A stretch of 48,953 nucleotides of DNA from Acidimicrobiia bacterium (lineage in GTDB: Bacteria; Actinomycetota; Acidimicrobiia; IMCC26256; PALSA-555), in the NCBI GenBank assembly GCA_040881685.1, contig JBBECS010000040.1, positions 1 through 48,953 of the forward strand, written 5' to 3'. Under the pieces are notes generated by a model, which worked only from the letters and a program-made list of their open reading frames with translations, had not been told where the DNA came from and made no database searches. The translations under genes and the position numbers were made by a program. This document shows positions 45,363 through 45,380 of the stretch, piece by piece (positions within the stretch are counted from its first letter, which is position 1; each line of letters opens with the position of its first letter).

Positions 45363-45380
45363 AGTGGAACATGTTCTACT
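45363..45380. promoter_or_regulatory. KstR-like palindromic operator in a divergent promoter
   Basis: AGTGGAACATGTTCTACT is an 18-base palindrome with one mismatched pair; its inner 14 bases TGGAACATGTTCTA (45365-45378) fit TnnAACnnGTTnnA exactly. It lies between the divergent SDR operon and the FadD19-like gene, ending 8 bases before the ligase ATG. Confidence 0.65.

Follow-up and report, generated by a model that had tools for sequence, protein, structure and literature searches.

A conserved KstR-type operator between a CYP125-like P450 operon and a FadD19-like ligase gene in the Acidimicrobiia, with a predicted link to riboflavin synthesis

Introduction

Which regulator reads a palindrome that lies between two divergent sets of putative lipid-catabolic genes in a genome of the class Acidimicrobiia, and how far does its control extend? 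The question is raised by a stretch of 48,953 nucleotides (hereafter the window), in which an operator-like sequence separates a leftward operon with a cytochrome P450 from a rightward acyl-CoA synthetase gene. KstR regulons are known in mycobacteria (PMC1995591) and in Nocardioides (PMC7593942). The text of a 2016 survey of steroid degraders does not mention the Acidimicrobiia (PMC4810484).

Results

The operator and its divergent promoter

The initial annotation had described a near-perfect palindrome of 18 bases that fits the published KstR pattern, and both statements were confirmed: the 18-mer AGTGGAACATGTTCTACT has one mismatched position pair, and its inner 14-mer TGGAACATGTTCTA fits the published KstR core TnnAACnnGTTnnA exactly. 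On a matrix built from 43 distinct published mycobacterial sites (Kendall 2007, PMC1995591, Table 3), the operator scores 25.6 bits, with a median of 25.7 and a minimum of 18.7 bits for the training sites themselves. Two exact matches to the 14-mer core occur in the window versus 0.06 expected from dinucleotide shuffles, and none of 100 such shuffles contained two. When the window was simulated 100 times with a first-order Markov model, the top score was at most 18.5 bits (none reached 19). The matrix p-value at the operator score is about 2e-9 per position, corresponding to 0.007 expected sites per genome. The other exact 14-mer of the window, at 14860, scores 23.4 bits, and everything else in the window scores 14.5 bits or less.

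The divergent promoter was also given the correct length of 53 bases, which follows from start codons aligned with relatives. ATG 45389 is the FadD start conserved in relatives, and the SDR start GTG 45335 is conserved in relative G002, where the upstream ATG 45356 meets a stop. Only 8 bases separate the operator end from the FadD start codon. No viral contig scanned contained the exact 20-mer. The palindrome is almost certainly the binding site of a KstR-like repressor, the binding being predicted. KstR2, a TetR repressor of steroid catabolism (lower cholesterol pathway) that responds to a CoA thioester, has an operator with a different palindrome from that of KstR, whereas the site at 45363 matches the KstR matrix.

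Genes flanking the operator

The coordinates of the operator, the surrounding genes and the further sites are collected in Table 1. The genes facing the operator had been likened to those of KstR regulons (a P450 and a fadD19-type ligase), and the likeness holds at the level of families. The rightward gene encodes an acyl-CoA synthetase of the PRK07798 subfamily, of which FadD19 is a member; the FadD19-like label rests on this subfamily, and five proteins of the genome resemble the same FadD type (several paralogues). The P450 of the leftward operon is nearest CYP125. Its best PDB match, CYP125MRCA, is by its name what we take to be a reconstructed CYP125 ancestor, and in the order of sequence matches CYP124 and CYP125 come next. 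Elsewhere in the window lies the sole KshA_C protein of the genome, a KshA-type Rieske oxygenase. Judged by their families, the CYP125-like P450, the PRK07798 ligase and the KshA_C protein would fit an attack on both the steroid side chain and the rings. In addition to the candidate selenoprotein within the leftward operon, a second AhpD/YciW-like frame with a TGA in a CxxU context (CGYU) was observed at 38439-39437 on the minus strand, again a candidate selenoprotein.

Table 1. Features of the operator locus and sites of the predicted regulon. Plain coordinates refer to the window; C and L numbers denote contigs and loci.
Feature	Position	Strand	Details
KstR-type operator, before the FadD/SDR pair	45363..45380	.	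18 bp, palindrome with single mismatch; 25.6 bits
Divergent intergenic region containing the operator	45336..45388	.	53 bp, between SDR (GTG 45335) and FadD (ATG 45389)
Acyl-CoA synthetase, PRK07798 subfamily (FadD19-like)	45389..47032	+	NF005863 708 bits, cut-off 543
Second acyl-CoA synthetase, next gene, same strand	47072..48655	+	NCBIfam best FadD4 model, below cut-off; PDB best FadD13
SDR, leftward operon gene 1	44529..45335	-	PRK07890 subfamily
Second SDR	43744..44523	-	PRK07890 subfamily
CoA-transferase-like protein, type III	42700..43707	-	Weak formyl-CoA transferase matches
YciW/AhpD-like candidate selenoprotein	42203..42703	-	In-frame TGA in CPIU motif; inside CYP125-like operon
Cytochrome P450 nearest CYP125 (steroid C26-monooxygenase)	40941..42206	-	PDB best CYP125MRCA, E 1e-134
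KshA-type Rieske oxygenase (KshA_C domain)	25585..26697	-	PF19298 101.9 bits, cut-off 23.3
TetR regulator, distant KstR relative	24171..24794	-	33% identity with the KstR-type protein of C14
Second window operator	14860..14877	.	23.4 bits; before Peripla_BP_6 substrate-binding protein and branched-chain-type ABC transporter (9627-14842, minus)
Site before second P450, outside the window	L043:10711-11986 (C40:54710)		22.3 bits; 37 bases before the gene
Site before SDR-kstR operon	C14		24.8 bits
Site before OB_ChsH2/Ltp-type operon	beside kstR		22.0 bits
KstR-type operator and FMN riboswitch upstream of ribD	L016:4999-5016 and 5056-5224 (G000 C36:286470)		27.9 bits
Site before Peripla_BP_6 gene divergent from amidohydrolase-like gene			Substrate-binding protein L042:15465-16424
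Site before luciferase-like monooxygenase			
Two sites at second luciferase-like/SnoaL/MFS locus			
Site before PhoD-like gene	contig end		Gene identified by eye

Conservation of the operator and its loss together with KstR

We compared the promoters of the 15 closest FadD orthologues, which share at least 66% identity and represent several genera, the window included. Eleven of them carry an operator of at least 19 bits before FadD, mostly 26-33 bases upstream and otherwise within about 105 bases (the distance in G005 is estimated from a partial match). Conservation of the operator is 14.9/18, compared to a mean of 11.4 and a maximum of 13.2 for 107 other upstream 18-mers. No KstR match was found at E 1e-10 in G007 (99% complete) and G009 (93% complete). 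The FadD operators of these two genomes are decayed (10.1 and 10.7 bits, respectively), and no high-scoring site was found in them except one coding-type 14-mer. We should note two exceptions: G010 contains KstR fragments and has lost the FadD operator (-3.3 bits), and G004 contains KstR with no site within the 110 bp available upstream of FadD.

These comparisons bear on the possibility that the palindrome arose by chance in a GC-rich genome and has no regulatory role. Controls with the reverse pattern are composition-biased, so raw counts are untrustworthy, which leaves some room for such an origin. Against it stand the matrix expectation given above and the persistence of the operator in place in orthologous promoters despite diverged flanks, together with its loss where KstR is lost. 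At the level of conservation a chance origin is refuted, and we give it a negligible probability.

A KstR-clade regulator on contig C14

As potential binders, the initial annotation had named a genomic KstR homologue or the TetR encoded at 24171. A TetR of the KstR clade is indeed encoded at C14:8548-9129. By sequence, its top PDB match is M. tuberculosis KstR (E 5e-27), followed by the KstR-like 3BJB (7e-22) and, at a distance, the next entry (5e-10). Conversely, a search with M. tuberculosis KstR among the 17 TetR_N proteins of the genome returned the C14 protein as best (E 2.7e-30) and the 24171 TetR as second (1e-10). The C14 regulator is 37% identical to M. tuberculosis KstR, contains the Pfam TetR_C_20 ligand domain over its cut-off and has KstR as its best NCBIfam model, with 135 bits versus a curated equivalog cut-off of 280 bits (NF033703). 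The eight other acidimicrobiial members that were scored are also below this cut-off (131-171 bits), including that of Aquihabitans sp. G128, a genome with near-consensus operators. In a first tree, the C14 regulator and M. tuberculosis KstR form one clade (99/96) that excludes the 24171 protein, and within it M. tuberculosis KstR groups with another acidimicrobiial subgroup (97/89; weak, at 80/37, in the reduced tree). Numerous TetR branches of this first tree were long and its bootstrap had not settled; of it, the KstR clade alone was used, and this clade was rebuilt with fewer rows to give the reduced tree. Because of the 135 versus 280 bits and the position of M. tuberculosis KstR nearer the other subgroup, the C14 regulator may be a sister of KstR instead of a strict ortholog.

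The AlphaFold model of the C14 regulator has a pLDDT of 91.8, and the structure it resembles most is that of M. tuberculosis KstR bound to DNA (5FMP, TM 0.90/0.95). The recognition region of the regulator (VQMRDVA..VALGTIYRYF) differs very little from that of KstR (VQMRAVA..VAVGTLYRYF) and is unchanged at most positions across 19 relatives. The kstR-like gene is itself flanked by two operators, one upstream of the SDR-kstR operon and one just downstream, before the ChsH2/Ltp operon, and both are found in the same places in G001 and G002. A PDB search with the ChsH2-like open reading frame (C14:7992-8435) gave no match.

The suggestion that the TetR at 24171 is the regulator was not borne out. 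This protein is a distant KstR relative, it is encoded on the same contig as the operator and its gene lies close to the KshA-type gene, but its recognition helix has the sequence VSTATAYTYF, where the KstR group keeps VALGT(I/V)YRYF. Moreover, the reciprocal search places it second, 20 orders of magnitude behind the C14 protein, and the motif flanks the C14 gene, while the best score near 24171 is 14.5 bits, with no strong site nearby. We thus rejected it as the operator binder, a role for which we regard it as very improbable; it is perhaps a separate steroid regulator. The 24171 gene lies two genes from the KshA-type oxygenase (24171-26697, minus strand).

Two further observations concern the family as a whole. 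A second KstR-like subgroup occurs in the Acidimicrobiia (L090, L103, L105 and similar loci), often encoded next to a PRK07798-like ligase. KstR-type palindromes are present at the gene of this second subgroup as well, and some genomes contain both subgroups. In addition, the public contig CAMDCC010000038.1 (L125), titled Bifidobacterium breve and probably mislabelled, encodes a KstR-type protein that is 93% identical to that of C14.

The genome-wide regulon

The initial annotation had expected the motif to recur before lipid-catabolic genes. This is what the scan with the KstR matrix revealed: at least 11 non-coding sites of at least 20 bits versus 0.23 expected, mostly before genes of this kind. 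One more site, C3:63992 (20.0 bits), lies inside a predicted reading frame and was excluded from the count. Orthologous counterparts exist in G001 for nearly all sites, and for many of them in G002 or G008 too; the operator at 14860 is kept in G001 and G008, and the second site of the second luciferase-like locus is below 18 bits in relatives. A stretch of about 135 kb on one contig of G001 holds both kstR and most of the sites. In 80 named KstR-type loci, almost all of them acidimicrobiial, we counted 74 operators in 820 kb versus none with four symmetric shuffles of the matrix, and in about a dozen of these loci an operator is located about 1.27 kb upstream of kstR.

Two other ways of counting were discarded. 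The excess of raw 14-mers over the reversed pattern is no evidence because genomes without KstR show an excess too (9 versus 1 and 11 versus 1). The 14-mers inside coding genes score low once their flanks are included (e.g., C35:30278, 14.6 bits) and recur in KstR-less genomes, and they were treated as coding coincidence.

No Mce/MlaD domain was found in a search of the genome. Two of the operators lie before genes for ABC-type substrate-binding proteins, whose importers are candidates for non-Mce sterol uptake, and the regulon looks rewired relative to that of mycobacterial KstR. The missing Mce/MlaD importer is also one of the points that would suit another substrate, namely that a KstR-clade protein binds the operator and the regulon serves a different isoprenoid or branched lipid (phytol-type, hopanoid or bile-acid-like side chains), with an inducer other than a sterol-CoA. 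The modest identity of the regulator to M. tuberculosis KstR, under the curated cut-off, and the rank of CYP124, a methyl-branched lipid hydroxylase, as second-best P450 family would suit it as well. However, a CYP125-nearest P450 and a KshA-type Rieske protein in one window point to steroids, as does the OB_ChsH2/Ltp-type operon beside kstR with its own operator. We therefore hold a different lipid to be unlikely, at roughly one chance in four, and proceed with a sterol as the presumed substrate.

A riboflavin branch

The 27.9-bit site of Table 1 precedes an FMN riboswitch by about 40-60 bases, and the riboswitch in turn precedes ribD. Of the 16 genomes compared, 10 have a site of 20.9-30.7 bits upstream of ribD; these ten represent three families and include the present genome (loci L206-L212, L214, L220, and L221), and the FMN riboswitch was detected in nine of these ten. 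The operator is absent in four relatives having KstR, and none was seen at ribD in G007 or G009 (the contig of G007 ends early there). We lean towards the reading that the KstR-type repressor of Acidimicrobiia also controls vitamin B2 synthesis: sterol supply would govern initiation and FMN would govern read-through, providing flavin on demand for a flavin-heavy sterol catabolism.

Discussion

A model for the divergent operator

The computations establish the site, the regulator, their conservation and the membership of the regulon; from these we infer binding, repression, the ligand and a sterol as substrate. With high confidence, we propose that the operator serves the KstR-clade repressor of the genome itself (C14:8548-9129), which would block both divergent promoters until released by the CoA thioester of an oxidised sterol side chain. 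A KstR-type dimer on 18 bp within the 53-bp gap would shut off the leftward SDR-SDR-CoA transferase-selenoprotein-CYP125-like P450 operon as well as the rightward FadD19-like ligase, and probably the next ligase too. Occlusion of both promoters would be nearly unavoidable because the operator ends so close to the FadD start codon. The CoA thioester, presumably the product of the P450 and the ligase, would bind the repressor and release it, and induction by the product of the own pathway would be self-reinforcing. The responsiveness to a sterol-CoA, already put forward in the initial annotation, is carried over from mycobacterial KstR; the PDB entries nearest to the C14 model are structures of that protein in complex with 3-oxo-4-cholesten-26-oyl-CoA and with operator DNA. 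The operator would act together with some eleven others of a conserved regulon, to which the operon of the repressor also belongs, making about a dozen in all.

Comparison with known KstR regulons

Nocardioides belongs to a different class of Actinomycetota. The described regulon of Nocardioides simplex resembles the present one in having non-mycobacterial KstR sites before cyp125, kshA, and other steroid genes but differs in its mce genes under KstR (PMC7593942). The KstR (Rv3574) regulon of M. tuberculosis and M. smegmatis (Kendall 2007, PMC1995591) has the same 14-bp palindrome and score range as found here, and likewise has operators in divergent promoters and a TetR-clade regulator with operators of its own. 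CYP125-like P450, acyl-CoA ligase, SDR, thiolase/Ltp, acyl-CoA dehydrogenase, and luciferase-like targets are shared, and the grouping of kstR with most sites in G001 is comparable to the large mycobacterial gene cluster. In contrast to the mycobacterial system, the regulon described here belongs to the class Acidimicrobiia, its regulator is below the NCBIfam equivalog cut-off, ABC substrate-binding proteins instead of Mce genes are associated with operators, a candidate selenoprotein is part of the CYP125-like operon, and an operator precedes an FMN riboswitch and ribD. The word riboflavin is absent from Kendall 2007 (PMC1995591), and no riboflavin link was found in the available part of the account of the N. 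simplex regulon (PMC7593942).

Significance

The KstR-type operator described here is genuine and conserved, it lies in a bacterial class new to this type of operator, and at least one branch of its regulon is unexpected. The regulon leads us to predict that riboflavin synthesis is linked to sterol catabolism; among the top results of the literature search, we found no description of KstR in connection with riboflavin or an FMN riboswitch. It extends a well-studied regulator of cholesterol catabolism in tuberculosis to the Acidimicrobiia, most of which are uncultured and live in lakes, soils, and bogs, and provides for this class a list of candidate sterol genes that includes possible non-Mce importers.
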